DNA of 64,000 bases, taken from NCBI RefSeq assembly GCF_030252345.1, contig NZ_CP126980.1, positions 1,565,501 to 1,629,500 on the forward strand. Direction: 5' to 3'. The position numbers and the translations under genes are program-made. Positions 24,948 to 61,400 of the stretch are shown piece after piece; the first letter of the stretch is position 1; each line of letters opens with the position of its first letter. The notes below the pieces were generated by a model, which ran no database searches, had not been told where the DNA came from, and saw only the letters and a program-made list of their open reading frames with translations. This DNA is from Actinoplanes oblitus (GTDB taxonomy: Bacteria > Actinomycetota > Actinomycetes > Mycobacteriales > Micromonosporaceae).

Positions 24948-25305
24948 CGGCTGGCGCTCACGGTGGTGTCCCGACCCGGGATACCACCGTCACCCCCAGC
25001 CGGTCCCCGCCCGCGGTCCGGGCTGGTCGTCACGGTGGTGTCCGGGCCTGGGATACCACCGTGGGTGCCAGCCGGTCCGGCCCGTGGTCTGGGCTGGTCG
25101 TGACGGTGGTGTCCGGGTCTGGGATAGCACCGTGAGTGCCAGCCGGTCCCGGCCTGTGGTCTGGGCTGGTCGTGACGGTGGTGTCCGGGTCTGGGATAGC
25201 ACCGTGAGTGCCAGCCGGTCCCGGCCTGTGGTCTGGGCTGGTCGTGACGGTGGTGTCCGGGTCTGGGATAGCACCGTGGGTGCCAGCCGGCTCGGTTCTC
25301 GACGG
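24948..25305. repeat. Tandem array of about five 71-72 bp units with inverted-repeat core
   Basis: Units begin at about 24948, 25020, 25091, 25163 and 25235; the last three are almost identical and spaced exactly 72 bp. Each has a core CACCGTGAGTGCCAGC, a spacer of about 21 bases, then GCTGGTCGTGACGGTG, which is an imperfect inverted copy. The linker to the next core is GTGTCCGGGTCTGGGATAG. A related array with a shorter spacer lies at 61.0 kb. Long open frames cross the array on both strands only because the period is a multiple of three. They lack starts or family matches and I treat the array as non-coding. Confidence 0.88.
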
Positions 25306-25477
25306 GCGTCGCCGGTGCGGGGCTTGCCCGACAAGGGGCGCGCCCGGCGGTGACTGTGGACGACGCCCGGGGTTCGCCCGGGGCGGGGCGCTCCGGGCGT
25401 ACCGAAATCGGGGTGAAAAGCGAGACGCCCTGGCTCGCGGGATGACCGGGAGCCAGGGCGGACGTCACGTCCGGATG

Positions 25478-26224
25478 CTAGACGCGCCGGCGGATCATGA
25501 ACGCCATGCCGGCCAGGCCGGTCAGGATGACCAGCAGGACCGCCCCGTTGAGCAGCAGCAGCTGGCGCATCTGCCCGAACAGGTGGCCGGCGCCGGCGAC
25601 CGGGTCGACCTCGGACTGGTCCAGGCTCTCGCCGACACCGCCGCCGATGCCGCCGTTGACCACGTCCGGTTTCGCCTTCAGCGGGACGCCGCTGAGCCGC
25701 AGCGACTCGGACATCGACTGCCGGCCGTAGAACCAGCCGTCCTGCTGCCGCTTGGTGCCGGCCGGCTGCTGCGCCGGCCGGTGCGCCCGCGGGCCGCCGG
25801 CGGCCAGCGGGTACAGCTCGAACTCCTGGGTCGCCTTGTCCCCGGTCAGCACGTGGACGACGTATCTCGGACCCAGCTTGGCGCTCTTGCCGGGAGGTGA
25901 GGCCTGCGGCTGCGCCGCGGCGAGCCACCCCACCTCGGTGAACAGCATGCGGAACAGTTTCGGGTCCTCGGCCTGCAGGACCTTGATCCCCTCGTCCGGC
26001 ACGCCCTGGCCGGTGATGTGGATCCCGTTCGGCTGCGGTTTCGGTTTGGCCGGCGGTTTGGCCGGTGGCCTGGTCGTCGGTTTGGCCGCCGGAAGGACGC
26101 CGGTGATCTGCCCGGCGGAGGTGGCTTGCGCCGCCGCCGGGGTGGTGCCGAGTGCCAGTGCCGCCGCGATCGTCACTGCGCCGGCCGCCGTCGCCACCCG
26201 TTTCATAGCTCGTCGAACCACCAT
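25478..26224 (-). CDS. Secreted, C-terminally membrane-anchored protein of unknown function
   Basis: A 248-residue predicted exported protein. The start ATG at 26224 follows GGGGGAGG. Residues 1-33 form a signal peptide (VVRRAMKR, then a long Ala-rich core ending near AAAQA). A Pro/Lys-rich linker follows (about 42-65, KPTTRPPAKPPAKPK), then a folded region with GIHITGQGVPDEGIKVLQAE and YVVHVLTGDKATQEFELYPL. The C-terminus is a transmembrane helix (LLLLNGAVLLVILTGLAGMA) followed by IRRRV, an anchor with a positive tail. The layout resembles surface proteins held in the membrane; I recognise no named family. Confidence 0.78.
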   Translation of the reverse strand: MVVRRAMKRVATAAGAVTIAAALALGTTPAAAQATSAGQITGVLPAAKPTTRPPAKPPAKPKPQPNGIHITGQGVPDEGIKVLQAEDPKLFRMLFTEVGWLAAAQPQASPPGKSAKLGPRYVVHVLTGDKATQEFELYPLAAGGPRAHRPAQQPAGTKRQQDGWFYGRQSMSESLRLSGVPLKAKPDVVNGGIGGGVGESLDQSEVDPVAGAGHLFGQMRQLLLLNGAVLLVILTGLAGMAFMIRRRV

Positions 26225-26529
26225 CCGACCTCCCCCGCCCGTGGATGACATGGTTACGTGAACCGCTGCTCGTGCACCGGGGATGACCGGTGCGCGGCAT
26301 CGGCCTCTCCAGCCTTCCCGAGCACCGGCCCTGTCGCATCCAGAGACAGGGTTAATTGGAGCTATGTGGGGGGACGGCCGCGGAGGACGGTGAAGCCGTT
26401 GATCAGCGGCCGAATATTACCCAGTCCGCGCAACGCGTGGGGGTGGCGGCCACCCATGTAGCGGACCGCATCACCGCATTCGACGACCAGCTATGGCGGC
26501 CGGCCGTCGAATGCGGTAAAAGGGGGCGA
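26225..26529. other. Intergenic region between gltX and secreted protein gene
   Basis: No credible gene. It should carry the promoter of the secreted protein gene (minus strand) and the 3' end of the gltX transcript. The inverted repeat at 26473-26517 is listed separately. Confidence 0.4.
26473..26517 (-). terminator. Long inverted repeat downstream of gltX
   Basis: A perfect 13-bp inverted repeat, ACCGCATTCGACG (26473-26485) and its complement (26505-26517), with a 19-base loop. It lies 13 bases past the gltX stop on that strand. There is no U-tract after it, so it may be a factor-assisted terminator or an mRNA-stabilising hairpin. Confidence 0.6.
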
Positions 26530-27942
26530 TCAGGCGGAAAGTCGCGCCCGGGCCGCCGCGATCCGGGACAGCGTCCGCTCCCGGCCGAGCAGCTCGATCG
26601 ATTCGAAGAGCGGAAGTCCGACGGTACGCCCGGTGACGGCGACCCGGACCGGTGCCTGGGTCTTACCGAGCTTCAGCCCGCGCGCCTCGCCGACCTGCTC
26701 CAACGCGGTTTTCAGCGGCTCCGCGCGCCAGTCGGTGAGCGCGGCGAAGGCCTCGGCGGCGCCGTCCAGGATGTCGGCGGCGCCCTCCTTCATCGCCTTG
26801 GCCCAGGACGCCTCGTCGTCGACCGGCTGGTCGAGGAAGAGGAAATCGACGTTCTCCACGATCTCGGAGAGCACCGCGATCCGGGTCTGCGCCAGCGGGG
26901 CGATGGTGGTGAAGATCTCCGCGTCGAATTTCGACGGGTCCCACGGCGGGGCCGGGATGGTCCCGGTGCCGGTCAGCCACGGCGCGCAGACCTGGGTGAA
27001 CTCGGCCGGGGTGAGGGCCCGGATGTACTCGCCGTTGAACGCGCGCAGTTTCTTGACGTCGAAGAAGGCCGGGGCGTGGTTGACGTCCTCGATCCGGTAC
27101 TCCTCCTCGACCACCGACCACGGGACGATCTCCCGGTCGCCGGTGGGCGACCAGCCGAGCAGCATCAGGTAGTTGCGCATCGCGGCGGCGAGGTAGCCCT
27201 CGTCCCGGTACGACTCCAGGGCGACCTTGTCCCGCCGCTTCGACAGTTTCTGCCGCTTCTCGTTGACGATGACCGGGACGTGTCCCCAGACCGGCGGGGT
27301 GACGCCGAGCGCCTCCCAGAGCAGCTGCTGCTTCGGCGTGTTCGGCAGGTGCTCCTCGGCGCGGAACACGTGGGTGATCCCCATGCTCATGTCGTCGACC
27401 ACGTTGGCCAGCAGGAACACCGCCGAGCCGTCGGAGCGGGCGATGACGAAGTCCTCGATCAGCTTGTTCTCGAAGGTGGGCTTGCCGCGGACCAGGTCGA
27501 CGACCACCGTCTCGCCCTCGTCCGGCGTGCGGAAACGCAGCGCGCGACCCTCGCCCGGGCCGAGCGCCCGCTCGCGGCAGAAGCCGTCGTAGCCGGTGTG
27601 GGTGTTGCCGGAACGGGCGGTCACGTCCTCGCGCTTGCAGTCGCAGTAGTACGCCTTGCCCTCGGCGTACAGGCGGGTGGCGGCGGCGGTGTGGTCGGCC
27701 GCGTACGAGGACTGGTAGTAGGGGCCCTCGTACGTCCCGCGTTCGATGCCGATCCAGTCGAGCGCCGAGATGATGCCCTCGGTCCACTCGGGTTTGTTGC
27801 GGGCCGCGTCGGTGTCCTCGATCCGGAGCACGAAGACGCCGCCGTGCTGCTGGGCGTAAATCCAGTTCTGCAGCGCCGAGCGGGCGCCGCCGACGTGGAA
27901 CATGCCGGTGGGTGAGGGGGCGAAACGTACGCGAACAGTCAC
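26530..27942 (-). CDS. gltX: Glutamyl-tRNA synthetase
   Basis: Class I synthetase charging tRNA-Glu, 470 residues. The HIGH-type motif is in [18 protein letters not shown] (about 8-25) and the KMSKS-type motif is [13 protein letters not shown] near 247. The Zn-like Cys motif is partly visible as YYCDCKRE. The C-terminal anticodon-binding region is complete. The GTG start overlaps the stop of the upstream AlkZ-like gene (GTGA), so translation is probably coupled. The gene is followed by the inverted repeat at 26473-26517. Confidence 0.95.
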
Positions 27943-28925
27943 GGTGCCAGCCTACCGAGATCGGCGAGCGCATTACGGACCCAGCCCGGCTGGTCGCGGA
28001 ACAGGGTGATGGTGCCGGTGTCCCAGGTGCCCTCGATCCGCCCGTTCACCAGGACGACCGGGGAGATCCAGCCCTGTGGCCGCGACACCGCCGACCGGGG
28101 GCCGCTGCTGATCGCCTCCAGCTGGCGCAGGGCGCCGACGGTGTAGGGGTCGAAGGCCGGCAGCAGGTGGACGGTGTCCTCGGCCGCGGCGTCCGAGATC
28201 TCGGCTCTGACGCGCTGGAACGCCTGCTTGGCCAGTGGCGGGCGCAGGTCGAACCAGCGGGCGAACTCCGCCGGCTCCGCCGGGCCGTAGGCGCCCAGAT
28301 AGTCCAGCGCCAGCCGGTCGACCGCCTCCTCCAGGTCGACCGGCTCCTGCTCGCCGAGCCACTCCCGCGGTGCCACGAAGGTGACGTTGCGCCCACGGGG
28401 CGGCCCGGAGCAGAGCAGGCCGCGGAAGGCGAGCGGCTTGAGGATCGCCCCGAAGCCCTGGGTGAGCGGCTCGCGCAACTCCTCGTGCCCGGTCGCGGCG
28501 ATGATCGCGGCAGCCAGTTCCTCGCGGGTCATCGGTTCGCCGCCGAGCACATCGGGTACCGCCGAGATGATGTCGGCCATCTGGTCCACGGTGACCCCGT
28601 GGTACTTCAGCCACGAGCCCTTGGTCTCCCGCTCGCGGGTGCTCATCGCGGCCACCCAGTACGGCAGGTCGGCGGCCGGCAGCAGGTGCAGCGTGCCCCG
28701 GGCCGCCCAGGTGCGGACCAGTGTGCGGTCGCGGTACAGCGCGGCGTCCAGGTCCGGCGGGGTGTCCATCCGCAGGTCGGCCGCGGCCTGGGCGCAGGAC
28801 GCGACCTGGGCGTGGATGCCGCAGAGCCGACGGGCCAGGGCGACCGGGTCGGTGGCCTTCACGGAGCCGAGGTGGTGGCGGTGGACGCGCCAGCGGAGAA
28901 CGTCGTCGAGCTGCACTTGACACAC
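27939..28925 (-). CDS. Winged-helix DNA-binding protein of the AlkZ/YcaQ-like (HTH_42) family
   Basis: A 328-residue protein of the winged-helix family that includes the DNA glycosylases AlkZ and YcaQ. Family signatures: [40 protein letters not shown], and a C-terminal [16 protein letters not shown] with [13 protein letters not shown]. Most actinobacterial members are uncharacterised and their glycosylase activity is not shown. The start may be GTG at 28925 or GTG at 28916. It is the first gene of a two-gene unit with gltX and is divergent from the RibD-like reductase gene. Confidence 0.85.
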
Positions 28926-28992
28926 GCTAGCCGACCGGCTTACTTTACCAATGAGTTAATTAACCAACACGTCAAATACAGAGGTGAGCGAG
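28926..28992. promoter_or_regulatory. AT-rich divergent promoter with palindrome
   Basis: This 67-base gap between divergent genes is markedly AT-rich for this genome. It contains the perfect palindrome GTTAATTAAC (28955-28964) flanked by ACCAA on both sides (28947 and 28963 areas), a pattern typical of MarR/HxlR-like operators. No such regulator gene is adjacent. Confidence 0.5.
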
Positions 28993-29526
28993 ATGGGCAA
29001 GGTTGTCGCTGTGGAGTACGTGACGCTCGACGGCGTCTTCGAGGAGCCGGCGTGGAGCGGCCCCTACTTCAACGAGGAGCTCAGTGGCTGGCAGGCGGAG
29101 AACCTGCGGGAGGCCGACGCGCTGCTGCTCGGCCGCCGGACCTACGAGGGCTTCAAGCAGGCCTGGCCGCGGATGGAGGAGGCCACCGGCGACTTCGGCG
29201 TGCGGATGAACGCGATGCCCAAGCATGTGGCGACCACGACGCTGAGCGAGCCGGAGTGGAACGCGACGTTCATCGAGGGCGAGGTGGCCGACGCGGTGGC
29301 CAAGCTCAAGACCGAGCCGCGCACGCTGCTGATCAACGGCAGCGGGACCCTGGTGAACTATCTGACCAGGCACAACCTGATCGACGAGTACCGGATCATG
29401 GTCTTCCCGGTGGTGCTGGGCGAGGGCCGGCGGCTCTGGGACGACGGCACCAAGATCGCCCTGTCGCTGACCGGGTCGTGGCGCACGGCGACCGGCGTCG
29501 AGGTGGTGACCTACGTCCCGGCATGA
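28993..29526 (+). CDS. RibD C-terminal-domain (dihydrofolate reductase-like) protein
   Basis: A 177-residue cytoplasmic oxidoreductase of the DHFR/RibD fold. The motifs are KVVAVEYVTLDGVFEEP, LLLGRRTYEGFKQAWPRM, LINGSGTLVNYLTRHNLIDE and MVFPVVLGEGRRLW, the typical order of this broad group. Such stand-alone proteins are usually of unknown substrate and are not true folate enzymes. The ATG at 28993 lies behind GAGGTGA; a GTG at 28984 is inside that ribosome site and less likely. A strong terminator follows. Confidence 0.88.
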   Translation: MGKVVAVEYVTLDGVFEEPAWSGPYFNEELSGWQAENLREADALLLGRRTYEGFKQAWPRMEEATGDFGVRMNAMPKHVATTTLSEPEWNATFIEGEVADAVAKLKTEPRTLLINGSGTLVNYLTRHNLIDEYRIMVFPVVLGEGRRLWDDGTKIALSLTGSWRTATGVEVVTYVPA

Positions 29527-29527
29527 G

Positions 29528-29552
29528 AAAGGGCCCGCCGGAGCGGGCCCTT
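29528..29552. terminator. Bidirectional intrinsic terminator
   Basis: Hairpin with arms AAAGGGCCCGC and GCGGGCCCTTT and a short CGGA-like loop. It separates the convergent RibD-like gene and aceE and should stop both transcripts. Confidence 0.9.
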
Positions 29553-29563
29553 TCCACTGATTG

Positions 29564-32302
29564 CTAGCTGTCGCCGCCGGTCTCGCCGACCGGCGCCGCG
29601 TTCACGTCGTCGATCGCGTACTTCTTGGCGGCCTCGCCGGGCACGTGCCCCGGTACCTTGCCGCGCAGCGCGAGCTCGCGCAGCGTGGCCACGGCGACCG
29701 ACTCGCCGTCCACGTGGAAGTGGCGGCGCAGCGCGTGCCGGGTGTCGCTCATGCCGAACCCGTCGGTGCCCAGCGAGGTGTACCCGTTCGGCACCCAGCG
29801 GGCGATCAGGTCGGGCACCGCCCGCATCCAGTCGCTGACCGCCACCGACGGACCCTCGGTGCCCTCCAGCTTCTGCTGGATGTACGGCTTGCGCGGCTGG
29901 TCGCTCGGGTGGAGCAGGTTGTGCTCCTCCGCCTCGATCGCGTCCCGGCGCAGCTCGCCCCAGGAGGTGACCGACCACACGTCGGCGCTCACGCCCCAGT
30001 CCTGGGCGAGCAGCTCCTGTGCCTTGAGCGCCCAGCGCATGCCGGTGCCGGAGGCGAGCAGCTGCGCTTTCGGGCCGCCGGTCGCCGGGCCCTCGGAGTA
30101 GCGGTAGATGCCCTTGAGGATGCCCTCGGCGTCGACGTTCTCCGGCTCGGCGGGCTGGATCGCCGGCTCGTTGTAGATGGTGAGGTAGTAGAAGATGTTC
30201 TCCTGCTTCTCGCCGTACATGCGATGCAGGCCGTTCTCCATGATGTGCGCGATCTCGTACGCGAACGCCGGGTCGTACGCCACCACGGCCGGGTTGGTCG
30301 CCGCGATCAGCAGCGAGTGCCCGTCCTCGTGCTGCAGGCCCTCACCGTTGAGCGTGGTGCGGCCGGCGGTGGCGCCGAGCAGGAAGCCCCGGGTCATCTG
30401 GTCGGCGGCTGCCCACAGCTCGTCGGCGGTGCGCTGGAAGCCGAACATCGAGTAGAAGATGTACAGCGGGATCATCGGCTCGTCGTGCGTCGCGTACGAC
30501 GTACCGGCCGCGATGAAGCTCGCTGTCGAACCGGCCTCGTTGATGCCCTCGTGCAGGATCTGGCCGTTCGTCGCCTCCTTGTAGGACAGGAACAGCTCCC
30601 GGTCCACCGAGGTGTACGTCTGGCCGTGCGGCGAGTAGATCTTCTTGGTCGGGAAGAGCGAGTCCATGCCGAAGGTACGGGCCTCGTCCGGGATGATCGG
30701 CACCCACCGGGCACCGAACTCCTTGTCCTTCATCAGGTCCTTGAGCAGGCGGACGAAGGCCATCGTGGTGGCCACCTTCTGCTTGCCGCTGCCCCGCTTG
30801 ACGTCGGCGAACGCCTTCGAGTCCGGGATCGCCAGCGACTTGGCCCTGGTGCGCCGGGACGGCACGTAACCGCCCAGATCGCGGCGGCGTTCCTGCATGT
30901 ACTGGTATTCGTCGGACTTCTCGCCGGGGTGGTAGTACGGCGGGAGGTACGGGTTCTCCTCGAGCTGCTTGTCGCTGATGTCGAGGTAGAGCCGGTCCCG
31001 GAAGCCCTTCAGGTCCTCCAGGGTCAGCTTCTTCATCTGGTGCGTGGCGTTGCGGGCCTCGAAGTGCGAGCCCAGCGTCCAGCCCTTGATGGTCTTGGCG
31101 AGGATCACCGTCGGCTGCCCGGTGTGCTCGGTGGCCGCCTTGTACGCCGCGTAGAGCTTGCGGTAGTCGTGGCCACCACGCTTGAGGTTCCAGATCTCGT
31201 CGTCGGTCATGCCCTCGACGAGCTTGCGGGTCCGCGGGTCACGGCCGAAGAAGTGCTCCCGGACGTACGCCCCGGACTCGCCCTTGTAGGTCTGGTAGTC
31301 ACCGTCGGGCGTCACATTCATCAGGTTGACCAGGGCGCCGTCGGTGTCGGCGGCGAGCAGCGGGTCCCACTCGCGGCCCCAGACCACCTTGATCACGTTC
31401 CACCCGGCGCCGCGGAAGAAGGACTCCAGCTCCTGGATGACCTTGCCGTTGCCGCGTACCGGGCCGTCGAGCCGCTGCAGGTTGCAGTTGACCACGAAGG
31501 TGAGGTTGTCCAGCTCCTCGCGGGCGGCCAGGCCGATCGCGCCGAGCGACTCGACCTCGTCCATCTCGCCGTCGCCGAGGAACGCCCAGACGTGCTGCTG
31601 GCTGGTGTCCTTGATGCCGCGGTTGTGCAGGTAGCGGTTGTACCGCGCCTGGTAGATCGCGTTCATCGGGCCGAGGCCCATGCTGACGGTGGGGAACTCC
31701 CAGAAGTTCGGCATCAGCCGGGGGTGCGGGTACGACGGGAGGCCGCCACCGGGGTGGCTGAGCTCCTGGCGGAAGCCGTCCAGCTGGTCGGTGGTCAGAC
31801 GACCCTCGAGGTACGCCCGGGCGTACATGCCGGGGGAGGCGTGGCCCTGGAAGAAGATCTGGTCGCCACCGCCGGGGTGGTCCTTGCCCCGGAAGAAGTG
31901 GTTCATGCCGACCTCGTAGAGGCTGGCACTCGACGCGTACGACGAGATGTGGCCTCCGACGCCAATCTCGGGTCGCTGCGCGCGGTGCACCAGCATGGCG
32001 GCGTTCCACCGGACGTAGGCCCGGATGCGCCGCTCCACGAACTCGTCACCCGGGAACCAGGGCTCCTGCTCCGGCGTGATCGTGTTGATGTAGTCGGTGG
32101 ACGTCAGTGGCGGAACGCCGACCTGTCGTTCACGCGCGCGCTCCAGCAGGCGCAACATCACGTACCGGGCTCGTTTGGCGCCCCGTTCGTCGATGACTCC
32201 GTCGAGGGACTCGATCCACTCGTTCGTTTCCGAAGGGTCGATGTCCGGAAGCTGGCTCGGCAGGCCATCGCTGATCACCGGGCGCTTGCGCTCCGTGGCC
32301 AC
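29564..32302 (-). CDS. aceE: Pyruvate dehydrogenase E1 component (homodimeric)
   Basis: Single-chain thiamine-diphosphate enzyme (912 residues) that decarboxylates pyruvate and passes acetyl groups to E2. Family features are [20 protein letters not shown], a TPP-binding [14 protein letters not shown] followed by [16 protein letters not shown], and the C-terminal transketolase-like part with [11 protein letters not shown]. The start is GTG at 32302 with AAGAGG upstream; the longer frame to 32371 adds residues unlike the family. The E2/E3 genes are not here. The promoter lies in 32303-32455. Identity is very secure. Confidence 0.96.
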
Positions 32303-32433
32303 AGGCAATCCTCTTGGTGTGAGTGTCGGAACCGGTGCGATCAAGGTGGCGTATCGCCCGGAGGTCTCCATCCTGCCTCTTAACGGTGGGCATCGTCACG
32401 CCTAACGGTCGGCGCAGCGATGCGCGACACATG

Positions 32434-32445
32434 TACTGACCAGTA
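32434..32445. promoter_or_regulatory. Small palindrome upstream of aceE
   Basis: TACTG-AC-CAGTA is an exact 12-base palindromic element about 135 bases upstream of the aceE start. The gap 32303-32455 also contains two copies of ACCGTTA on the minus strand. It may be an operator; nothing else supports this. Confidence 0.3.
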
Positions 32446-32455
32446 ACTTTGCCGA

Positions 32456-32860
32456 TCACCCGTTGAGGAAGGAGAACCGCACCTGGCGAGTGGGGTTGTC
32501 GCCGTTCGGATCCACCAGGCAGATCGACTGCCAGGTGCCCAGCGTGAGCCGGCCGCCGAGCACCGGCAGGCTGGCGTACGGCGGGATCCAGGCCGGCAGC
32601 ACGTGATCGCGCCCGTGCCCGCGCGAACCGTGCCGGTGCCGCCACTTGTCGGCGGCCGGCAGCAGGTCGTCGATAGCGGTCAGCAGGTCGTCGTCGGAGC
32701 CGGCGCCGGTCTCGATGATCGCCAGTCCGGCCGTCGCGTGTGGCACGAAGACGTGCAGCAGGCCGTCCTGCTCGGACGCCACGAACTCCTCCGCCTGCCG
32801 GGTGATGTCGACGACGACCGGCCGGTCGCCGGTCCGGACGGTGATCACTTCGCTACGCAT
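32456..32860 (-). CDS. YjbQ family (UPF0047) protein
   Basis: A 134-residue cytoplasmic protein of the YjbQ family, some members of which show thiamine-phosphate synthase side activity; the true role is unknown. Characteristic residues are FVPHATAGLAIIETG, LLPAADKWRHRHG, HVLPAWIPPYASLPVLGG and GTWQSICLVDPNG, including the His/Glu cluster thought to bind metal. The start at 32860 gives normal length. It lies upstream of aceE on the same strand, a TPP-dependent enzyme, so the neighbourhood is suggestive, though not proof, of a thiamine link. Confidence 0.9.
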   Translation of the reverse strand: MRSEVITVRTGDRPVVVDITRQAEEFVASEQDGLLHVFVPHATAGLAIIETGAGSDDDLLTAIDDLLPAADKWRHRHGSRGHGRDHVLPAWIPPYASLPVLGGRLTLGTWQSICLVDPNGDNPTRQVRFSFLNG

Positions 32861-32880
32861 CCGGCGAGCCTACCGGCGGC

Positions 32881-32952
32881 CTATGTGTAGAGATCCAGCA
32901 CGAGGAAGGCCGCCGCGATCAGGACCAGACAGGCGGCGCACCTCATGATCAT
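32881..32952 (-). CDS. Possible 23-residue hydrophobic micropeptide
   Basis: An open frame of 23 codons that reads MIMRCAACLVLIAAAFL and ends VLDLYT, i.e. two Cys followed by a short hydrophobic helix. The start could be the ATG at 32952 or at 32946. The ribosome site is weak (CCGGGA). It sits 20 bases upstream of the YjbQ-like gene on the same strand. If translated it would be a one-helix membrane peptide or a leader. Evidence is the amino-acid pattern only. Confidence 0.3.
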   Translation of the reverse strand: MIMRCAACLVLIAAAFLVLDLYT

Positions 32953-33056
32953 CCCGGTATTGCACCACCGGATCCGGGCCCCGCGCAGGAAGATCGACAA
33001 GTGTGATCGGCCGCCGGTGGGTGGCAGCGTTCGCCGCGGTCCGCAATGCTGATTTC

Positions 33057-35276: not shown

Positions 35277-35384
35277 ATTGCCACACACTCGGTGCGCCAC
35301 TTGCGCCCGGGGCCCGGAGTGTGTGGACTACCCCCAAGTTCCGGTACATTTTCGCGGCATTTCACGGCTAGGAGGATTTGGACA

Positions 35385-36869: not shown

Positions 36870-36941
36870 GGGCGCGTAGCTCAGTGGGAGAGCACTCGCC
36901 TTACAAGCGAGGGGTCGTAGGTTCGAAACCTACCGCGCCCA
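36870..36941 (+). tRNA. tRNA-Val (anticodon UAC)
   Basis: A complete cloverleaf of 72 nt. The acceptor stem GGGCGCG pairs with CGCGCCC. The D arm holds AGCTCAGTGGGAGAGC. The anticodon stem CTCGC/GCGAG encloses loop CTTACAA with anticodon TAC, reading GUA. The T arm is GTAGG-TTCGAAA-CCTAC. CCA is not encoded. Confidence 0.96.
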
Positions 36942-36950
36942 CGACCAACG

Positions 36951-52046: not shown

Positions 52047-52069
52047 CAAGGAGTCAGGCCGACGGGGTG

Positions 52070-54385: not shown

Positions 54386-54591
54386 CCGGGCCACGCTGAA
54401 CACCGCCAGCCACGCACCGTATCCACTCCGTTTCCGCGACCACCGATCACCGCCGGTGTCATCGGCAGAAATCCGAGCTGAATGAGCGAATCTGCCATGA
54501 ACGCCGCGGCCGGGGCGCCGCATGGCGGACGGGGCCGAACTCGCGCCGGGCCTGGCCGGCGCCGCCCCGACGATCGTGGCCTCGAGGCGGC

Positions 54592-55000
54592 GGACGAGCC
54601 GGCCTGTACGCCGGATTCTGTGGCCGGGACCTCGCGGTCCGCGGTGGCGGCCATCCATCTCGGCCTGCCGTTGCCGACAGGCTCATGCAGCCTACCCGCA
54701 GGCTCGGGCGAGCAGCCCTCGAACGCCTGCGCCGGCCGGGGCCTCGCGGTCCCGGCCTTGCTTGGCCTTGCTCCGGGTGGGGTTTACCTAGCCGCCCCGG
54801 TCACCCGGGGCGCTGGTGAGCTCTTACCTCACCGTTTCACCCTTACCGGCCGGTGCTGGCACCGGCCGGCGGTCTGTTTTCTGTGGCACTGTCCCGCGGG
54901 TCGCCCCGGGTTGCCGTTAACAACCACCCTGCTCTGCGGAGTCCGGACGTTCCTCGGCGATGCCCGCGGGCACCGACGCGGCCGCCCAGCCGACTCGTCC
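54592..55000 (-). ncRNA. rnpB: RNase P RNA, type A
   Basis: The ribozyme component of RNase P, about 409 nt, which trims 5' ends of pre-tRNA. The minus strand contains the conserved elements in order: a 5' P1 strand GGACGAGTCGGC, GAGGAACGTCCGGACTCC, GCAGAGCAGGGTGG, GGTGAAACGGTGAGGTAAGAG, AGGTAAACCCC and ACAGAATCCGGCGTACAGGC, ending with the matching P1 strand GGCCGGCTCGTCC. Frames over it are spurious. Ends were set by P1 pairing. Confidence 0.95.
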
Positions 55001-55137
55001 GTCGCGTCGCCATAGTACGTCCCGGCCGGTCACCGGCAGTGCACCCGGTCCGGTTTCCGATCTCGGAAGCCGGCGCGGGCGTGATCTCGTGAGAAGGCGG
55101 GGCCGAGGCCGGGTGAGGACGTAGATTCGCTCGCATC

Positions 55138-55902
55138 ATGGATCTGTCGCACATCTTGTTGCTGGGCATCGCCGGTGTCGCGGCCGGAGCGGTGAACGCG
55201 ATCGCCGGGGGCGGTTCGCTGATCACGTTTCCGAGCCTGATCGCGACCGGGCTGCCCTCGGTGGCCGCCAACGTCACCAACTCGGTCTCGGTGTTCCCGG
55301 GGTACGTGTCGAGCGTCGCCGGAAGCCGGGCGGACCTCGCCGGGCAGGGGCGGCGGGTGCGGGCGGTGCTGCCCGCCGCGGCGCTCGGGACGCTGGCCGG
55401 ATGTGTGCTGCTGCTGTCCACGCCGGGGCGGGTGTTCGAGGTGGTCGTGCCGTTCCTGGTGCTGGGTGCGGCGGCGACGCTGGCCTTCCAGGAGCGGCTG
55501 CGCGGGCTGGTGGGGCATCCGCGGGCCATGTCGGCGCGACGGGCCGCGGTCACGGTGCAGGCCGTGGTGTTCGTCGGGGCGGTGTACGGCGGGTACTTCG
55601 GTGCGGCGCTGGGGGTGATGTACGTGGCGGCGCTGGCACTGGTGCTGGACGAGCCGCTGAAGCGGATCAACGCGCTGAAGAACGTGCTGTCGGCGACGGT
55701 GGGGCTGGTCACCCTGCTGGTGTTCGCGCTCTTCGCGGATGTGCGCTGGGATGCGGTGGCGGTGCTGGCACCGGCCACCGTCGTCGGCGGCTACGCGGGG
55801 GCCCGGCTGGCCCGGCGGCTGCCGGGCAAGGTGCTCAAGTGGGTGATCGTGACGTTCGGGACGGCGATCGGGCTGCTCTTGCTCTACCGCGCCTTCGCCT
55901 GA
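55138..55902 (+). CDS. TauE/SafE family membrane exporter
   Basis: A 254-residue membrane protein with seven to eight helices. The N-terminus LLLGIAGVAAGAVNAIAGGG and PSLIATGLPSVAANVTNSVS are characteristic, and a second repeat contains GAVYGGYFGAALGVMYVAAL and KRINALKNVLSATVGLVTLL. Family members export sulfite or organosulfonates; the substrate here is unknown. It is a single gene with its promoter in 55001-55137 (divergent from rnpB). Confidence 0.9.
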   Translation: MDLSHILLLGIAGVAAGAVNAIAGGGSLITFPSLIATGLPSVAANVTNSVSVFPGYVSSVAGSRADLAGQGRRVRAVLPAAALGTLAGCVLLLSTPGRVFEVVVPFLVLGAAATLAFQERLRGLVGHPRAMSARRAAVTVQAVVFVGAVYGGYFGAALGVMYVAALALVLDEPLKRINALKNVLSATVGLVTLLVFALFADVRWDAVAVLAPATVVGGYAGARLARRLPGKVLKWVIVTFGTAIGLLLLYRAFA

Positions 55903-56063
55903 CGGCGGGTGCGGGCCGCGAGAGGCCCCGGCACCGTATTTCTCCCGCGGCGAGGGCGAGTTTCGGCGATTCATGCACACTGGGATCAGAGTCGGAAACT
56001 GGTTCACCCTTCCCAAATATGATCTTGATACCCCAATCGGACGTAAGTCAAACACGCCCGCAA

Positions 56064-56513
56064 TCACGGCGTACGCGAAAAAGGGTTTCGCGGGCCGCCG
56101 ACAGCGACCATCAAGACCTCCAGTGCCTCCTCTTCGTCCAGGTCATAGAGGCTTTTCCAGTTCGTGGCGCGGAGCGCGGCGGGCGGCGATCCGGAATCGA
56201 GGAGCAGTGCCACCAGGCCGGGCGCCAGGGGCACCTCGGCCCAGTCCGAATCGGACGCTCGATGCTCCCGGGAGACCAAAATGACCACCAGATCCGGTCC
56301 GGATAGCGCAGCGCCTATCCGATCGGCGAAGTCGACCCCGGCCGGCTGCATTTCCACCACATGCCCCGCTGCCTGCAGGGATCGGTTGATCCACTGTGCC
56401 CACGGTGCGTCCGAGGTGGCGTAGGAGAGGAGTATGGGCACGTCTCCAGCATGCCGTAACGTGCTCCACATTGTTGCCGGGGCTTTGATGGTCATCATTC
56501 GGCTGTGTGACAT
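56064..56513 (-). CDS. TIR-like domain protein
   Basis: A 149-residue protein consisting mainly of a TIR-like fold: VPILLSYATSDAPWAQWINR, SLQAAGHVVEMQPAGVDFAD, LVVILVSREHRASDSDWAEV, then LAPGLVALLLDSG. The last block has the Ser, Trp and Glu (SDWAE) placed like the catalytic Glu of TIR NADases. Some actinobacterial TIR proteins act in NAD+ depletion or signalling. The start is chosen at ATG 56513 behind GGAAG; GTG at 56441 is an alternative. No effector or other defence gene adjoins it. It is divergent from the GAPDH homologue. Confidence 0.7.
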   Translation of the reverse strand: MSHSRMMTIKAPATMWSTLRHAGDVPILLSYATSDAPWAQWINRSLQAAGHVVEMQPAGVDFADRIGAALSGPDLVVILVSREHRASDSDWAEVPLAPGLVALLLDSGSPPAALRATNWKSLYDLDEEEALEVLMVAVGGPRNPFSRTP

Positions 56514-56645
56514 CGTCTTCCGTTGACGTGCAACTTGCACAACTCATAGTGTCGGAGCCGTGACGCCGAGTGGACTCTTCTGTGAAACAGAGGTGTTCTG
56601 GGCGGACGGGGAAGGCATAACAGCAGCGGAGTCGAGGAGCGCTCG
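56514..56645. promoter_or_regulatory. Divergent control region with palindrome GTGCAACTTGCAC
   Basis: A perfect 13-base palindrome GTGCAACTTGCAC occupies 56528-56540. It is 15 bases upstream of the TIR gene start and about 105 bases upstream of the GAPDH homologue start. The 14-base string TGCAACTTGCACAA also occurs at 39952-39965. It is a likely regulator site. Confidence 0.55.
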
Positions 56646-57704
56646 ATGACTGTCGCGATCGGGATCAACGGCCTCGGGCGGATCGGTCGCAGCTTGACCC
56701 GAATCGTGGCGTCGACCCCGAATCCGGGTATCTCGATCGCCGCGGTGAACGACATCGCGTCCACCGAGAAGCTGGCGTACGGCCTGCGCCGGGACAGCAT
56801 CCGGGGCGCGTTCCCGGGCACTGTCACCGCGCGCGGCGACTATCTCGTGGTCAACGATCACGCGATCCGCGCCTATCACCACGAACGCCCGGAACGCATC
56901 CCGTGGGCCGAGCAGGGGGTGGAGGTGGTGATCGAGGCGACCGGCCGGTTCCGGGCCGGCACCGCGGCACGCACCCACATCACCCACGGCGGCGCCCGCA
57001 AGGTGGTGATCAGCGCCTCGGCCGACGATCCGGACGCCTTCCTGGTCGTCGGCGCCAATCACCTCAGCTACGACCCGGCCGTGCACAACGTGGTCTCGCC
57101 GGCCTCCTGCGGGGTGAACGCGCTGACCGTGATGGCCAAGGTGCTGCTCGACCGATTCGGGCTGCACTCGGTGAACACCTCGGTGATGCTGGCCACCCAG
57201 GGCTGGCAGCGGGTGCAGGACTCGCTGATCGGCACCTCGCGGGACGATCCGCGGCTGGGCCGGGCCACCGGGGAGAGCATCATCCCGCACAACCACGTGG
57301 TCGGTGACCTGGTCCGGGTGGCGCTGCCGGAGATCGGCGAGATGCGGTACAGCTACTACTGCGTGCCCACGCCGGTCGGCTCGCTGGCCGAGCTCTCCGG
57401 GCAGACCGGGCGGCCGGTGACGGTCGAGGAGGTCAACCGGGCGATGGCCGAGGCGGCGGCCGGGCCGCTGCGGGGCATCCTGGCGTACGACCCGGACCCG
57501 ACCGTCTCCATCGACGTCAAGAACAATCCGGCCTCGTGCCTCTTCGACCCGTCCGGCACCCAGGCGACAGCGGACGGCGGGGTGAAGGTGCGCGGCTGGT
57601 TCGACAACGAGTGGGGCTTCTCGAACCGATTACTCGACCTGGCGCGGCTGATCGGGGAGCGCTTACCCGTCCCGTCCGGCCAGGTGAGCTGGAGCGTCGC
57701 CTAG
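56646..57704 (+). CDS. Divergent glyceraldehyde-3-phosphate dehydrogenase homologue
   Basis: A 352-residue GAPDH-family protein. The NAD site INGLGRIGRSL (8-18) and the catalytic Cys near 154 in SPASCGVNAL are present, and so is NEWGFSNRLLDLARL near the C-terminus. However, the histidine motif (usually VHAYT) reads SVMLATQGW, and the phosphate-site motif (usually IIPTSTGAA) reads IIPHNHVVGD. The second Cys of CxxNC is Ala. I infer a changed substrate or a non-glycolytic role. The start ATG at 56646 is clear. The gene is followed 9 bases later by a dehydratase. Confidence 0.88.
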   Translation: MTVAIGINGLGRIGRSLTRIVASTPNPGISIAAVNDIASTEKLAYGLRRDSIRGAFPGTVTARGDYLVVNDHAIRAYHHERPERIPWAEQGVEVVIEATGRFRAGTAARTHITHGGARKVVISASADDPDAFLVVGANHLSYDPAVHNVVSPASCGVNALTVMAKVLLDRFGLHSVNTSVMLATQGWQRVQDSLIGTSRDDPRLGRATGESIIPHNHVVGDLVRVALPEIGEMRYSYYCVPTPVGSLAELSGQTGRPVTVEEVNRAMAEAAAGPLRGILAYDPDPTVSIDVKNNPASCLFDPSGTQATADGGVKVRGWFDNEWGFSNRLLDLARLIGERLPVPSGQVSWSVA

Positions 57705-57713
57705 ATTCGACCC

Positions 57714-58601
57714 GTGATCAACCTTGCGGACGTGGAAGCCGCCGCCCGGCGGATCGAGGGCCGGATCCGGCGGACCCCGCTGATCGAGGCGGAGCCGGGC
57801 CGGCTCTTCAAGCTGGAGTACCTGCAGCACGCGGGGTCGTTCAAGACCCGCGGCATGATGAACAAGATCCTCAGCAGCGAGGTACCCGAGGCCGGCATCG
57901 TGGCGGCCTCCGGTGGCAACGCCGGGCTGGCGGCTGCCTACGCGGCGCGCCGGCTGAACGTGCCCGCCGAGGTGTTCGTGCCGGTCACCGCGCCGGCCGT
58001 GAAGGTGGCGAAACTCGGCAAGCTGGGCGCCCGGGTCGTCCAGGTCGGCAACGAGTACGCCGAGGCCTACGCCGCCGCGCGGGAGCGGACCGAGGCGCTG
58101 TTCTGCCACGCCTACGACGATCCGGCCATGGTCGCCGGAAACGGCACGCTGGGCCTGGAGATCGCCGGGCAGGCGGACACGGTGCTCGTCGCGGTCGGCG
58201 GCGGCGGCCTGATCGGCGGCGTCATCGCGGCTCTGCGCGGCACCGCCAAGATCGTTGCCGTCGAGCCGGTCACCTCCAGCGCGCTGCACGCGGCCCTGCG
58301 ACACGGCGCTCCCGTCGACGTCCCGGTGTCCGGTGTCGCCGCCGACTCCCTCGGCGCCCGCCGGGCCGGCGACATCGCCTTCGAACTCGCCACCGACGCC
58401 GGCATCGAGTCGGTGCTGGTCGACGACGACGCCATCGTCGACGCCCGGCAGCGCCTCTGGGACGACCAGCGCATCGTCGTCGAGCACGGCACCGCCGCCG
58501 CCTATGCCGCGCTCACCTCCGGCGCCTACCGCCCCGCGCCGGGCGAGCGGGTGATCACCCTGCTCTGCGGGGCGAACACCAACCCGGCCGATTTGGCCTG
58601 A
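57714..58601 (+). CDS. Serine/threonine dehydratase (PLP-dependent)
   Basis: A 295-residue fold-type II PLP enzyme. The Schiff-base Lys near 44 is in GSFKTRGMMNKIL. A phosphate-binding loop is ASGGNAGLAAAYAARRL and the later VAVGGGGLIGGVIAALRG is the glycine-rich cofactor loop. Family members deaminate L-Ser or L-Thr to the 2-oxo acid and ammonia. No regulatory ACT domain is present. It follows the GAPDH homologue by 9 bases and may be co-transcribed with it; a GTG start is used. Confidence 0.9.
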   Translation: MINLADVEAAARRIEGRIRRTPLIEAEPGRLFKLEYLQHAGSFKTRGMMNKILSSEVPEAGIVAASGGNAGLAAAYAARRLNVPAEVFVPVTAPAVKVAKLGKLGARVVQVGNEYAEAYAAARERTEALFCHAYDDPAMVAGNGTLGLEIAGQADTVLVAVGGGGLIGGVIAALRGTAKIVAVEPVTSSALHAALRHGAPVDVPVSGVAADSLGARRAGDIAFELATDAGIESVLVDDDAIVDARQRLWDDQRIVVEHGTAAAYAALTSGAYRPAPGERVITLLCGANTNPADLA

Positions 58602-58632
58602 TTCCACCCCGCCGGAATGGCACGCTCGTGAG

Positions 58633-59910
58633 GTGATCGAGGAGAACGAGATCCAGCCGGGCCGTCAGTTCCGGCGCTTCGCGCTCGCGGTCTGCGCCAT
58701 CGGGATGGTCATCCAGCTCGCCCTGACCGCGTACTACCTGGGCATGGGGCATCGGGCCGCACCGCACCACCTGCCGGTCGGCCTGGTCGCCAGTGCCGAG
58801 CAGCGCGCCGAGGTGATCGGCGTGCTCACCGCCGGCGACCGGTTCGAGGTGGCCGACTATCCGGCGGCCGAGGCGCTGACCACCGCGATCAGGCGCCGCG
58901 AGGTGTACGGCGGCGCCGACCTCACCGGCGACACCCCGCACCTCTACGTGGCGGGCGCCGCCGGACCGGCCGCCGCCAGCCTGCTGCGGTCCACCTACAC
59001 CTCGATGCTGCAGCAACGGACCGCCGCCCAGGTCACCCGGCTCGCCCAGACCGCGAGCCGGGTGGGCATCGTCACCGTCCAGTCCCTGACCGCCCCGCCG
59101 CTGGTCACCGACGTGGTCCCGCTGCCCGCCGACGACGTCAACGGGGTGTCGCTCGGCTTCCTCACCCAGGCGCTGTCCCTCGGCGGCACTGTCGCGTCGA
59201 TGGGGCTGGGCCGGCTCATCCCGCGCACCCGGCGCAGCTGGCGCCGCGGTGTCGCGCACCTGTCCACGCTGATCCTCTACGCCGTCGGCTCGGCCGTGGC
59301 GGTGCTGTGGTCGATGAGCTGGTTCGGCATCGGCAGCCACGCCGACCGGTGGGAGATGCTCGGCATCTTCTCGCTGATCTCGCTGGCCGTGACCGGATCG
59401 ACGGCCGGCGCGGTGGCGGTGATCGGCCCGCCCGGCGCGGCGGTCGGCGCGTTCTACTTCATGATCGGCACGGTCATCTCCGGGGCCAGCATCCTGCCCG
59501 AGTTCCTGCCCACCTTCGGCCGGGTGCTCGGCGAGAACCTGCCCACCGGCGCCGGCGTGCAGGCGGTCCGCGACAACCTGTACTTCCCGGACGCGCCGGT
59601 CGGCCCGCACCTGGGTGTGCTCGCCGCCTACGCGATCGTCGGCTCGCTGCTGGTGCTGGTCACCAACGTGCTGCCGAACCGGAAGAACAGCACGTCGGAG
59701 ATCGATCTCGACCTGACCGTGCGGCTGGAAGGGCCACCGGCTGAGGAAAAATCGCGGAGCGACTCAGTTTTCCGTGGCCACGCCGAACCAGTAGAACGTG
59801 GGAATCGAGGGAGTGAACTCGCGCATCGCCGACATCCAGAGCCGGATCCTGGCGTTGCAGACTCAGCAGGCGACCACGGCGACCGCGACCCGGACCTCGG
59901 GATCCGCTAG
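58633..59910 (+). CDS. Multi-spanning membrane protein (ABC-2/YhgE-like), 3' end uncertain
   Basis: A protein of up to 425 residues. It has one N-terminal helix (ALAVCAIGMVIQLALTAYYL), an extracytoplasmic domain with RFEVADYPAAEALTTAIRR, and five or six C-terminal helices (STLILYAVGSAVAVLWSMSW, GIFSLISLAVTGSTAGAVAV, PHLGVLAAYAIVGSLLVL). The layout resembles ABC-2 or YhgE-type permease subunits. The last 40 residues, past VRLEGPPAEEKSRSD, overlap the next gene by 113 bp in another frame and are Arg/Asp-rich, so the real end may be earlier or a frame error is present. The GTG start is used. Confidence 0.75.
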   Translation: MIEENEIQPGRQFRRFALAVCAIGMVIQLALTAYYLGMGHRAAPHHLPVGLVASAEQRAEVIGVLTAGDRFEVADYPAAEALTTAIRRREVYGGADLTGDTPHLYVAGAAGPAAASLLRSTYTSMLQQRTAAQVTRLAQTASRVGIVTVQSLTAPPLVTDVVPLPADDVNGVSLGFLTQALSLGGTVASMGLGRLIPRTRRSWRRGVAHLSTLILYAVGSAVAVLWSMSWFGIGSHADRWEMLGIFSLISLAVTGSTAGAVAVIGPPGAAVGAFYFMIGTVISGASILPEFLPTFGRVLGENLPTGAGVQAVRDNLYFPDAPVGPHLGVLAAYAIVGSLLVLVTNVLPNRKNSTSEIDLDLTVRLEGPPAEEKSRSDSVFRGHAEPVERGNRGSELAHRRHPEPDPGVADSAGDHGDRDPDLGIR

Positions 59911-60412
59911 CAACACCAGCACCAGCGCCAGCACGTTCGCCAGCCACCTGAGGGGCGCCATGGCCGCTCAGGGAACCTCGGCGGCGGACCAGGCCTACAA
60001 ACTCAACGGCAAGGGCATTCCGGAGGATCTCGCCGCGTACGGGAACGGCCGGATCCCGGCGGAGGCCCTCGAACAGGTCGGCGGCACCCGGCACAAGCTC
60101 TGGGCCCCGGCCGCCGAGAAACTCACCCAGCTGATCGCCGACGCCAAGGCCGACGGCGTCAAGATCGGCATCACGGACTCGTACCGTCCGTACACCGAAC
60201 AGGTCGACCTGGCCCGCCGCAAGGGCCTCTACTCACAGGGCGGCCTGGCCGCCAAGCCCGGCACCAGCGAACACGGCTGGGGCATGGCCACCGACCTGGA
60301 CCTCAACCCGGAAGCGCTCGCCTGGATGCGCAAGAACGGCGGCCGTTACGGCTTCGTCGAGAACGTGCGCCGCGAATCCTGGCACTGGGCCTTCCGCCCG
60401 AACGCGCTCTGA
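59798..60412 (+). CDS. M15-family D-alanyl-D-alanine carboxypeptidase
   Basis: A 204-residue peptidase of the VanY/M15B type acting on peptidoglycan stem peptides. Zinc-site motifs are SYRPYTEQVDLARRKG, then SEHGWGMATDLDLN (His and Asp), and the C-terminal ESWHWAFRP with the third ligand His. The N-terminus is a short Ser/Thr-rich helical region without a clear signal peptide. The GTG start at 59798 and the GTG at 59813 are both possible. It overlaps the upstream membrane protein by 113 bp as that frame is written. Confidence 0.85.
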   Translation: MGIEGVNSRIADIQSRILALQTQQATTATATRTSGSASNTSTSASTFASHLRGAMAAQGTSAADQAYKLNGKGIPEDLAAYGNGRIPAEALEQVGGTRHKLWAPAAEKLTQLIADAKADGVKIGITDSYRPYTEQVDLARRKGLYSQGGLAAKPGTSEHGWGMATDLDLNPEALAWMRKNGGRYGFVENVRRESWHWAFRPNAL

Positions 60413-60560
60413 TCGGCCAGGGACCACACCGGGGGGAAATGCGGGACCGCGACGATGCGTCGCGGTCCCGCTCCGCTTGCGGGAGATGCTTTCCGGTACG
60501 GCGGGGGCGGCGCCCGGCCGGCCGCTCGCGCACCGGCGACAGCCCGTGCAACCGGCCGCA

Positions 60561-60870
60561 CTGGTCACACGGCGTACTGGTCACGCGGCGTACTGGTCAC
60601 GCGGCGTACTGGTCACACCGCGCGCACTGGTCACACCGCGCGCACTGGTCACACCGCGCGCACTGGTCACACCGCGCGCACTGGTCACACCGCGCGCACT
60701 GGTCACACCGCGCGCACTGGTCACACCGCGCGCACTGGTCACACCGCGCGCACTGGTCACACCGCGCGCACCGGTCACACCGCGCGCACCGGTCACACCG
60801 CGCGCACCGGTCACGTCGCGCGCACTGGCCACAGGGTGCGGACCGGTCACGGCCCGCGCACCGGCCACAT
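60561..60870. repeat. Minisatellite of 16-bp then 18-bp units (about 18 copies)
   Basis: Copies of (C/A)CTGGTCAC start at 60561, 60577, 60593 and 60609 (16-bp period), then every 18 bp from 60609 through about 60861. The main 18-bp unit is CTGGTCACACCGCGCGCA, becoming CCGGTCACACCGCGCGCA and then diverging at the right end. Both periods are stated from direct counting. Confidence 0.92.
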
Positions 60871-61019
60871 TCCGTGCAGCCGCGACAGCCCGCCCACCCT
60901 GGGGGTGGGCCCCCGGAAGCAGTGTGGCGCAAGCGCGGTGGCGCCGCGAGCCAGGCTGTGGATAACCATCGGCGGGCGCGTTTCCGTTGAAGTGACCCAC
61001 GGGCTGCGGGCCACCGTCG

Positions 61020-61400
61020 GTGCCGGCGCCCTACCCCGGGCCCGAACAGCACCGTCAGGGCCAGCTGGGGTTGTTGGGCTGGTGTTCGTGGTGGTGTGCG
61101 GGGCTCGGATGGCACCGTCAGGGCCAGCTGGGGTTGTTGGGCTGGTGTTCGTGGTGGTGTGCGGGGCTCGGATGGCACCGTCAGGGCCAGCTGGGGTTGT
61201 TGGGCTGGTACTCACGGTGGTGTGCGGGGCTCGGAGAGCACCGTCAGGGCCAGCTGGGGTTGTTGGGCTGGTACTCACGGTGGTGTGCGGGGCTCGGATG
61301 GCACCGTCAGGGCCAGCTGGGGTTGTTGGGCTGGTACTCACGGTGGTGTCCCGGGCCCGGAGAGGACCACCAGGACCAGCCGAGGTCATCGGTCGGCCGG
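61020..61400. repeat. Tandem array of about six 63-bp units related to the 24.9-kb array
   Basis: Units of 63 bp have core CACCGTCAGGGCCAGC, a 12-base spacer TGGGGTTGTTGG, then GCTGGTACTCACGGTG, and a linker GTGTGCGGGGCTCGGATGG. The core and its inverted copy match the units at 24948-25305; the 9-bp difference in period (63 versus 72) equals the spacer difference (12 versus 21). No coding role is seen. Confidence 0.88.

Follow-up and report, generated by a model that had tools for sequence, protein, structure and literature searches.

Two tandem arrays, A and B, in a 64,000-nucleotide stretch of the Actinoplanes oblitus genome (bases 1565501–1629500 of a single contig of 9,807,870 bp; here the window) are built from one 53-bp palindrome, GGCTGG...CCAGCC. 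The palindrome belongs to a family of about 700 copies that resembles repetitive extragenic palindromes (REPs) and bacterial interspersed mosaic elements (BIMEs), is found in part of one genus, and lies mostly 3' of genes or between convergent genes. In A. oblitus the arrays of this family, unlike its lone copies, have a polarity set by replication: at mismatched stem positions and in bulges and spacers, the lagging-strand template has G and T in place of A and C. This replichore polarity is the most unusual feature of the family and is invisible from the window alone. We give a probability of roughly 0.5 to the explanation that we favour, in which the polarity arises because A and C in hairpin arrays change on one strand, the lagging-strand template.

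A palindrome is symmetric at the outset, and any mismatched pair therefore tells which strand has changed; hundreds of units at fixed places form a strand-resolved record of hairpin DNA at forks, a subject for which engineered palindromes are otherwise used. Should the cause be mutational, lagging-strand exposure would be shown in nature; if it is selective, the arrays would be a polar signal so far unrecognised. That they are polar, replication-oriented elements of either sort—a recorder of lagging-strand single-strandedness, or a selected landmark read by a replication or segregation protein—is a view we hold tentatively, at somewhat short of even odds.

Replichore polarity and its possible causes

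Stem pairs are compensatory in A. palleronii (128 units), where pair 13–41 is Watson-Crick in 94% of units versus 76% after shuffling, and pair 16–38 in 89% versus 67%. The contradiction between this pairing and that of A. oblitus, given below, led to the polarity result. Mismatched pairs were scored on the + strand, which right of the origin is the lagging-strand template, over pairs 1–23 in arrays of at least two units; G.T, G.G, and T.T are keto mismatches, and A.C, C.C, and A.A are amino mismatches. The 47 arrays scored come from 100 evenly spaced, unbiased 20-kb blocks (2 Mb, a 20% sample of the genome), the window, and 27 own-genome loci fetched as matches, with overlapping fetched loci left out and only distinct unit sequences counted in each array. 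All 25 arrays of the right replichore are keto (665:98) and all 22 of the left are amino (168:777), with no exception or tie (Fisher p 7e-14 if arrays count as independent); 12 lone units give a keto:amino ratio of 33:29. With G.T and A.C only, 26/28 loci up to 5.04 Mb have more G.T (477:41 in total; one opposite and one tie, both lone units), and from 5.6 Mb onwards 23/30 loci have more A.C (46:486 in total; one opposite, a lone unit, and six ties).

The sign switches between 5.04 and 5.8 Mb. Cumulative GC skew, which is weak here, peaks at 5.42 Mb and is lowest near 0.3 Mb; hence the switch falls at the likely terminus. Arrays between tandem genes separate replication from gene direction: two '++' and four '--' arrays on the right are all keto, and two of each on the left are all amino. 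Since both gene directions share the sign of their replichore, the asymmetry follows replication. RNA-level selection, considered from wobble pairs in tandem-gene contexts, was set aside when the signal proved to follow replication. In two sister species most arrays agree, with smaller margins; with the origin placed roughly by synteny, the expected sign appears in 6/7 arrays of G216 and 4/5 of G010, the fifth being 0:0 (G-numbers denote same-genus genomes, and L-numbers fetched loci).

The keto share is 0.53 in lone units, 0.70 at the origin-side edge of arrays, 0.85 at the terminus-side edge, and 0.89 in inner units. Oriented to the lagging-strand template, the right and left halves agree closely in G+T content: 77% and 78% in spacers (with 3% A), 69% and 69% in bulges, 63% and 61% in loops, and 51% and 51% in other intergenic DNA. 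The bias in loops and spacers belongs to single bases and not to pairs. Amino bases of the stem are eroded (A12 0.53 with G 0.45; C13 0.46 with T 0.40; A35 0.61 with G 0.38; C36 0.73 with G 0.27; A44 0.71 with G 0.26), and the keto partners of eroded bases stand at 0.87–0.98.

Conserved stem pairs of distinct units comprise, on the right, G.T 362, A.C 33, G.G 105, C.C 21, C.T 46, G.A 11, T.T 8, and A.A 0; on the left, G.T 45, A.C 377, G.G 35, C.C 163, C.T 15, G.A 28, T.T 0, and A.A 8. Selection for hairpin stability on the lagging template was rejected as a candidate, as C.T exceeds G.A on the right (46:11), contrary to expectation. The keto/amino partition coincides with the specificity of the mismatch-repair enzyme NucS as described in two papers: G-T, G-G, and T-T are cut, and A-C, C-C, and A-A hardly or not (PMC8228993, PMC11551767). 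A NucS filter would destroy slipped hairpins containing the former on one strand, and arrays would grow only where the mismatches of the nascent lagging-strand hairpin are NucS-blind; in each of four genomes examined NucS_C occurs once, and MutS_V in none. Pair types in loops and spacers, however, lie near the expectation from composition (loop C.C 82 versus 81.1, spacer C.C 23 versus 15.7), and bulge pairs have more C.C than expected (127 versus 72.2). Because the bias thus concerns single bases and not mismatches, we regard such a filter as improbable.

In the explanation that we favour, units would spread as non-autonomous elements by way of an enzyme, and tandem arrays would grow by replication slippage or unequal exchange. 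As a fork passes, an array may fold on the exposed lagging-strand template and stay single-stranded longer than ordinary DNA; its amino-bearing bases could then undergo deamination-like changes on that strand—A to G, C to T, and C to G. Such changes are expected where exposed single strands are deaminated, whether or not uracil is then excised. New tandem copies would inherit and fix them, which would explain why the polarity peaks within arrays and is not found in lone copies. The ordinary DNA of A. oblitus is nearly without strand bias, unlike all 47 arrays: other imperfect inverted repeats in noncoding DNA have 2067 keto and 1876 amino mismatches, and own-lineage substitutions (polarised by G010 and G216 over 14,801 window positions) give 30:37 in noncoding DNA and 148:133 at third positions.

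The main rival to strand-specific change is selection for a polar signal. The arrays would then be polar landmarks, recognised in duplex form by a protein that translocates or is linked to replication, in the manner of FtsK-orienting polar sequences (KOPS) or architecture-imparting sequences (AIMS), and this protein would need a G/T-rich strand aligned with the direction of the fork. Obedience in 47/47 arrays is as strict as selection typically makes it, strand bias is almost absent from ordinary substitutions, and a 63-bp period kept with unlike spacers is close to six helical turns, as for phased protein sites; for the other spacings, viewed by eye, we claim no helical phasing. Yet loci become sparser towards the terminus (1/34 falls at 3.5–5.6 Mb, which holds 21/100 blocks), the reverse of KOPS; spacers, loops, and bulges share composition with no common sequence; lone units are without polarity; and two sister species have no array at site B. 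We consider selection for a polar signal unlikely, though less so than the other alternatives.

Several observations weigh against strand-specific change. Spontaneous deamination usually hits C more than A, and here A is the most depleted base (2–4% in bulges, loops, and spacers, with C at 19–36%). The arms of A. oblitus units covary less than shuffles do (in sets of 50 and of 143 units), so that hairpin perfection is not maintained there. Other intergenic tandem repeats have a keto share above 0.5 in 54/81 cases and below it in 26/81 (p 0.002); because they share the bias, with the same sign and weakly, hairpins may be dispensable for part of the effect. Flanks are not polarised in A/T over their nearest 50 bp, and 200–400 bp out the origin side is 57–62% keto on the right and 48–50% on the left. 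If G.T and A.C alone are counted, two left arrays tie (1:1 at 7.885 Mb and 7:7 at 9.369 Mb); the 5.3-Mb dividing line was chosen after seeing the data, and no array of the set lies between 5.04 and 5.8 Mb. One of the seven G216 arrays has the wrong sign, and in A. palleronii the sign is inconsistent within contigs (15 same, 19 opposite; 28 loci keto, 32 amino, and 24 ties). Finally, the searches described below turned up neither an enzyme that could mobilise the units nor a target-site duplication or autonomous copy.

Range, placement, and turnover of the family

An initial annotation, made from the window's letters, had derived both arrays from one element, and the comparison of units bears this out. 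A typical array A unit is identical to an array B unit at 43/53 positions; over 53 columns the two arrays match at 44 positions at best, and 200 dinucleotide shuffles average 30.4 with a maximum of 34. The nine-base difference in period was rightly assigned to the spacer (21 versus 12 bases from GCCAGC to GCTGG, or 19 versus 10 for the 53-bp unit). The proposed inverted-repeat core had the correct arms but the wrong frame: CACCGT..GCCAGC/GCTGG..ACGGTG is the complementary register across the spacer, and sits on the arms of the true unit, GGCTGG...CCAGCC, whose centre is the inner loop. This boundary is set by solitary 53-bp copies elsewhere—single units make up 63/97 loci in the named-contig set—and a length-tolerant pattern finds exactly 53 bp in 102/104 distinct matches and 54 bp in the other two, both strand readings being included in the 104. 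The suggested ability to form hairpins agrees with RNA folding, where z runs from -2.8 to -13.6 for seven strands of five units.

A search of the whole genome and of relatives, as the annotation had proposed, returned 108 exact cores in A. oblitus and no reversed core; 35 other same-genus genomes have 0–5 exact cores each, with one exception at 18. For the full unit we used a palindromic scanning pattern with 20 fixed positions in 53 bp, at up to two mismatches (three in the sample blocks); being palindromic it favours no strand, and it does favour units that keep GCTGG/CCAGC. It finds 689 copies in A. oblitus, with none for the reversed pattern, and 793, 582, 294, 116, 108, 43, 43, 19, and 17 in the next nine genomes. 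The shared core is thus neither peculiar to the window nor a chance-level match: copies are genome-wide, and matches are far above shuffles. Matches occur in 20/61 same-genus genomes (own included; range 1 to 793) and, with one each, in 2/189 genomes from the rest of the family; the single-match genomes, namely four of the 20 and both outsiders, do not rise above the reversed-pattern control, which itself has one match in each of five same-genus genomes and as many as three outside the genus. A covariance model (CM) matched 150/150 scored candidates in A. oblitus and, at E ≤ 1e-4, was positive in 10/60 genomes, all of the same genus. At least 120 stretches in a species collection match; among 80 matches listed, 70 are from A. 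palleronii, seven from A. utahensis, two from A. cyaneus, and one from A. flavus. The 20% sample holds 175 units in 34 loci (control 0). Virus (exact pattern), plasmid, and phage collections gave no match to the element, and Rfam gave nothing at the gathering score, with two sub-threshold microRNA matches at array A only.

Spacings in the block sample are 62–64 bp in 129/141 cases and 71–72 in 7/141. Spacers are mostly alike within an array and unlike between arrays—the period is kept and the sequence is not—and linkers are mostly 9–11 bp, with no alternation of REP orientation. A period of 63–64 is also seen in G216, A. palleronii (among numerous other spacings), A. utahensis, and A. cyaneus; G010 has 75 and 107. 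By eye, the flanks of the 34 sample loci share no tetranucleotide, and units end in GGCTGG/CCAGCC with no GTAG or CGTC tag.

Placement relative to genes is strongly skewed. The 34 sample loci comprise 17 convergent, eight tandem, two divergent, two overlapping a called open reading frame (ORF), and five at block edges; convergent gaps thus hold 17/27 classifiable loci, and account for 324/1615 of all gene gaps (p 1.4e-6 by number, 1.8e-5 by bases). The 80 named loci, which were chosen for holding a unit, contain 97 unit loci (49 convergent, 22 tandem, five divergent, six overlapping, and 15 at edges). A unit lies on the 3' side of 275/344 genes within 300 bp of one, these genes coming from loci of several genomes, some of which overlap so that some genes are counted repeatedly. 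A recurrent neighbour gene was sought by all-against-all comparison of near genes longer than 60 aa and rejected; clusters had at most four members, several being the same locus fetched twice. Three of the 344 genes, such as that at L052 1729–2556 (- strand), have palindrome units on both sides within 300 bp.

Their 3' and convergent location, very stable RNA hairpins on both strands, and the compensatory pairs of A. palleronii would suit elements that act in RNA, as bidirectional transcription terminators or as mRNA-protecting 3'-end hairpins. This is distinctly unlikely given that the strand asymmetry tracks replication and not gene direction, and that sister species lack the array at site B. 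Nor do the units match an intrinsic terminator, a hairpin followed by a T run: in the printed flanks of the 34 loci no such run was seen by eye, and site A has a separate terminator-like inverted repeat at the end of its minus-strand gene in A. oblitus, G010, and G216. That repeat, CGCCCTGGCTC...GAGCCAGGGCG, lies at window 25427–25460.

Inner stems vary between genomes and yet remain paired. The commonest in A. oblitus is GGTGGT/ACCACC; G010 and G014 have GGGTGTCTC/GAGACACCC, G019 and G021 GGCTGTCTC/GAGACAGCC, and G216 GGCCCTATC/GATAGGGCC. Lone units of other types also occur in A. oblitus, for example GGGTTGTCTC at L295:590–642. Sites could be followed between genomes through the 257-aa gene beside array A, which has one match in each of 67/67 genus genomes, except for two neighbouring pieces in G032. 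At site A, the sister species G010 and G216 (88–95% DNA identity in long aligned blocks) carry an array in the same intergenic space, each of its own subfamily and with periods of 104 and mostly 64, respectively; G242 has one unit (four mismatches) beside the anchor gene, and in G014, G023, and G209 the same TetR gene end adjoins the anchor gene with no unit (by eye). No unit was found at 26/30 fetched site A loci. Site B is array-free in both sisters, with about 96 and 19 bp between aligned blocks versus about 1.1 kb in A. oblitus; because about 1.1 kb differs, there is no clean junction in which to read a target-site duplication. Sites L290 and L295 in six relatives likewise gave synteny and no clean empty junction. 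Since site A is shared with a different subfamily and period, and site B is array-free in the sisters, sites can be old with their occupying sequence replaced, or a favoured site can be re-entered. In G010, site A (L354, about 963–1271) has a three-unit array between 24-bp inverted repeats (GACCGCACCGCGCGTCACGGTCCC and its complement).

The initial annotation also proposed a mobile or amplified element. An amplified, genome-dispersed palindrome is what we find; patchy presence in the genus, the array-free site B, and genome-specific subfamilies speak for mobility only indirectly, and our searches turned up no transposase, no duplicated target site, and no autonomous copy. A miniature inverted-repeat transposable element (MITE) would have a target-site duplication and would share its ends with an autonomous transposon; site B offers no clean junction, and within the 2-Mb sample no arm pair flanking an ORF was seen. 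Separated arms around a transposase gene were rejected, with none among 39 unpaired half-sites in 2 Mb; the reversed sequence has 11, and several half-sites are array fragments. A classical REPIN (a REP doublet forming a hairpin) would be mobilised on the lagging-strand template by a REP-associated tyrosine transposase (RAYT) of the Y1/HUH kind, and the polarity would be one of insertion. The location, copy number, and palindromy of the units are REP-like, and HUH elements target the lagging-strand template, according to PMC6006769. This reading was already disfavoured and is highly improbable: PF01797 is absent from A. oblitus, from G216 (793 units), and from G231 (116), but has eight matches in G029 (seven units), and the polarity is independent of unit orientation and absent in lone units. 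As a candidate driver, a RAYT/Y1 protein was likewise dropped, as PF01797 occurs in 21/67 genus genomes (five in G010, three in G014) without tracking unit number.

Another dispersed element in intergenic DNA, about 150 bp long and containing TGGACGCGCAGCGGCCAG ... GACGATCAGTGATCAGCG in copies that vary, occurs in this and other genomes of the genus (L262 at about 5390–5560; also L003, L026, L082, L085, L357, and L361). It lies near palindromes in several loci, and its 18-mers are among the commonest in the 2-Mb sample.

The two arrays in the window

Tandem Repeats Finder places array A at 24960–25290 (period 72) and array B at 61049–61361 (period 63). By the 53-bp unit, array A has five units over 24949–25288 with spacers of 18–19 bp (one of them 18), and array B has five full units over 61077–61381, with 10-bp spacers, plus one degenerate unit. 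The core CACCGTNAGNGCCAGC (at most two mismatches) has 21 matches in the window, 19 inside the arrays, where 1.47 are expected and the largest of 100 shuffles gives six. Both arrays do lie past a plus-strand gene, as the initial annotation had it, yet a minus-strand gene converges on each from the other side, so that both are between convergent genes in our gene calls, which come from a home-made codon scorer. The features are collected in Table 1.

Table 1. Palindrome units, neighbouring genes, and RNA genes of the window
Feature	Position in window	Strand	Evidence
Array A unit 1, edge unit, nearly symmetric	24949..25001		Scan, 0 mismatches at fixed positions; CM 68.6 bits
Array A unit 2	25021..25073		53-bp scan; CM 78.1 bits; fold -40.7 (+) and -30.6 (-) kcal/mol
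Array A unit 3	25092..25144		53-bp scan; CM 74 bits
Array A unit 4, identical to unit 3	25164..25216		53-bp scan; CM 74 bits
Array A unit 5	25236..25288		53-bp scan; CM 72.7 bits
Array B degenerate first unit	61014..61066		Right arm alone recognisable, from ~61049; core match at 61050; missed by 53-bp scan
Array B unit	61077..61129		53-bp scan; CM 48.6 bits
Array B unit	61140..61192		53-bp scan; CM 48.6 bits
Array B unit	61203..61255		53-bp scan; CM 58.7 bits
Array B unit	61266..61318		53-bp scan; CM 58.6 bits; fold -28.3 (+) and -21.6 (-) kcal/mol
Array B last unit	61329..61381		53-bp scan; CM 60.5 bits
TetR-family regulator upstream of array A, 3' end facing array	24262..24921	+	Pfam TetR_N 6.8e-10
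257-aa protein gene converging on array A, anchor for orthologous sites	25478..26251	-	No Pfam match; match in 67/67 genus genomes
Nearest called + gene left of array B	58633..59910	+	Gene call; no Pfam match
Methyltransferase gene converging on array B	61621..62412	-	Pfam Methyltransf_31 1.5e-26; gene call
RNase P class A RNA	54591..54997	-	
tRNA-Val gene	36870..36942	+	

Beside array B, at window 60557–60869, is an 18-bp tandem array with 17.7 copies of CGCACTGGTCACACCGCG; it falls within the stretch of about 1.1 kb that is missing from G010 and G216, and its 12-mer GGTCACACCGCG has no occurrence in the 2-Mb sample. The 81 intergenic tandem repeats of L233–L332 are slightly G+T-rich on the lagging-strand template. 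A short motif, TTTCCGGTACGCCC / GGGCGTACCGGAAA, is found in intergenic DNA after genes, at about 25395–25407 and 60490–60500 in the window and also in L233–L332. In the 2-Mb sample TTCCGGTACG occurs 53 times and its complement 59 times, where base composition predicts about two each (expectation by hand).

Comparison with known systems

The nearest likeness is to REPs, also called palindromic units (PU), and to BIMEs in enterobacteria and pseudomonads, which are likewise high-copy extragenic palindromes, 3' of genes or between convergent ones, single or arrayed, and with genome-specific subfamilies. The Actinoplanes unit differs in its length (53 bp versus 20–40), its lack of a GTAG or CGTC end tag, its head-to-tail arrays of whole palindromes at a near-fixed period of 62–64 bp, its replichore-polarised arms, and the absence of a RAYT-type transposase in the two richest genomes. 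On length, end tags, and RAYT, we call the element REP-like and not a REPIN.

The mycobacterial interspersed repetitive unit/variable number tandem repeat (MIRU/VNTR) loci are likewise tandem repeats that lie between genes of actinobacteria, at many places and with a similar period; unlike the Actinoplanes arrays, they are not known to be palindromic or polarised by replichore. Skewed motifs of the KOPS/AIMS type do have a strand orientation set by the direction of replication, as the Actinoplanes arrays have, but the latter are long hairpin arrays of variable sequence and are not enriched at the terminus. Clustered regularly interspaced short palindromic repeats (CRISPR) have unlike spacers, whereas those here are mostly alike within an array; the comparison is made on spacers alone.

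Most REPs fall into GTAG and CGTC super-families, according to PMC3733652, and its CGTC-tagged REPs resemble our element in being palindromic families seemingly without a dedicated transposase. They differ in their CGTC and mostly CCA tails, in being mostly head-to-head dimers, and in being listed from five phyla that do not include Actinobacteria; the main text has no occurrence of the words Actinobacteria, Streptomyces, or Actinoplanes. A table in a 2025 survey (PMC12306157) gives REP counts for three Actinomycetota genomes, and the main text of that survey does not name Actinoplanes. Searches of listings and abstract openings in the open-access literature, where most subscription journals are absent, brought up no report of the element or of replichore-polarised palindrome arrays, which is weak evidence of novelty. 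Measured against these systems, the family adds a large REP-like element to Actinoplanes, a genus with none listed in those searches; the polarity of its arrays matters more.

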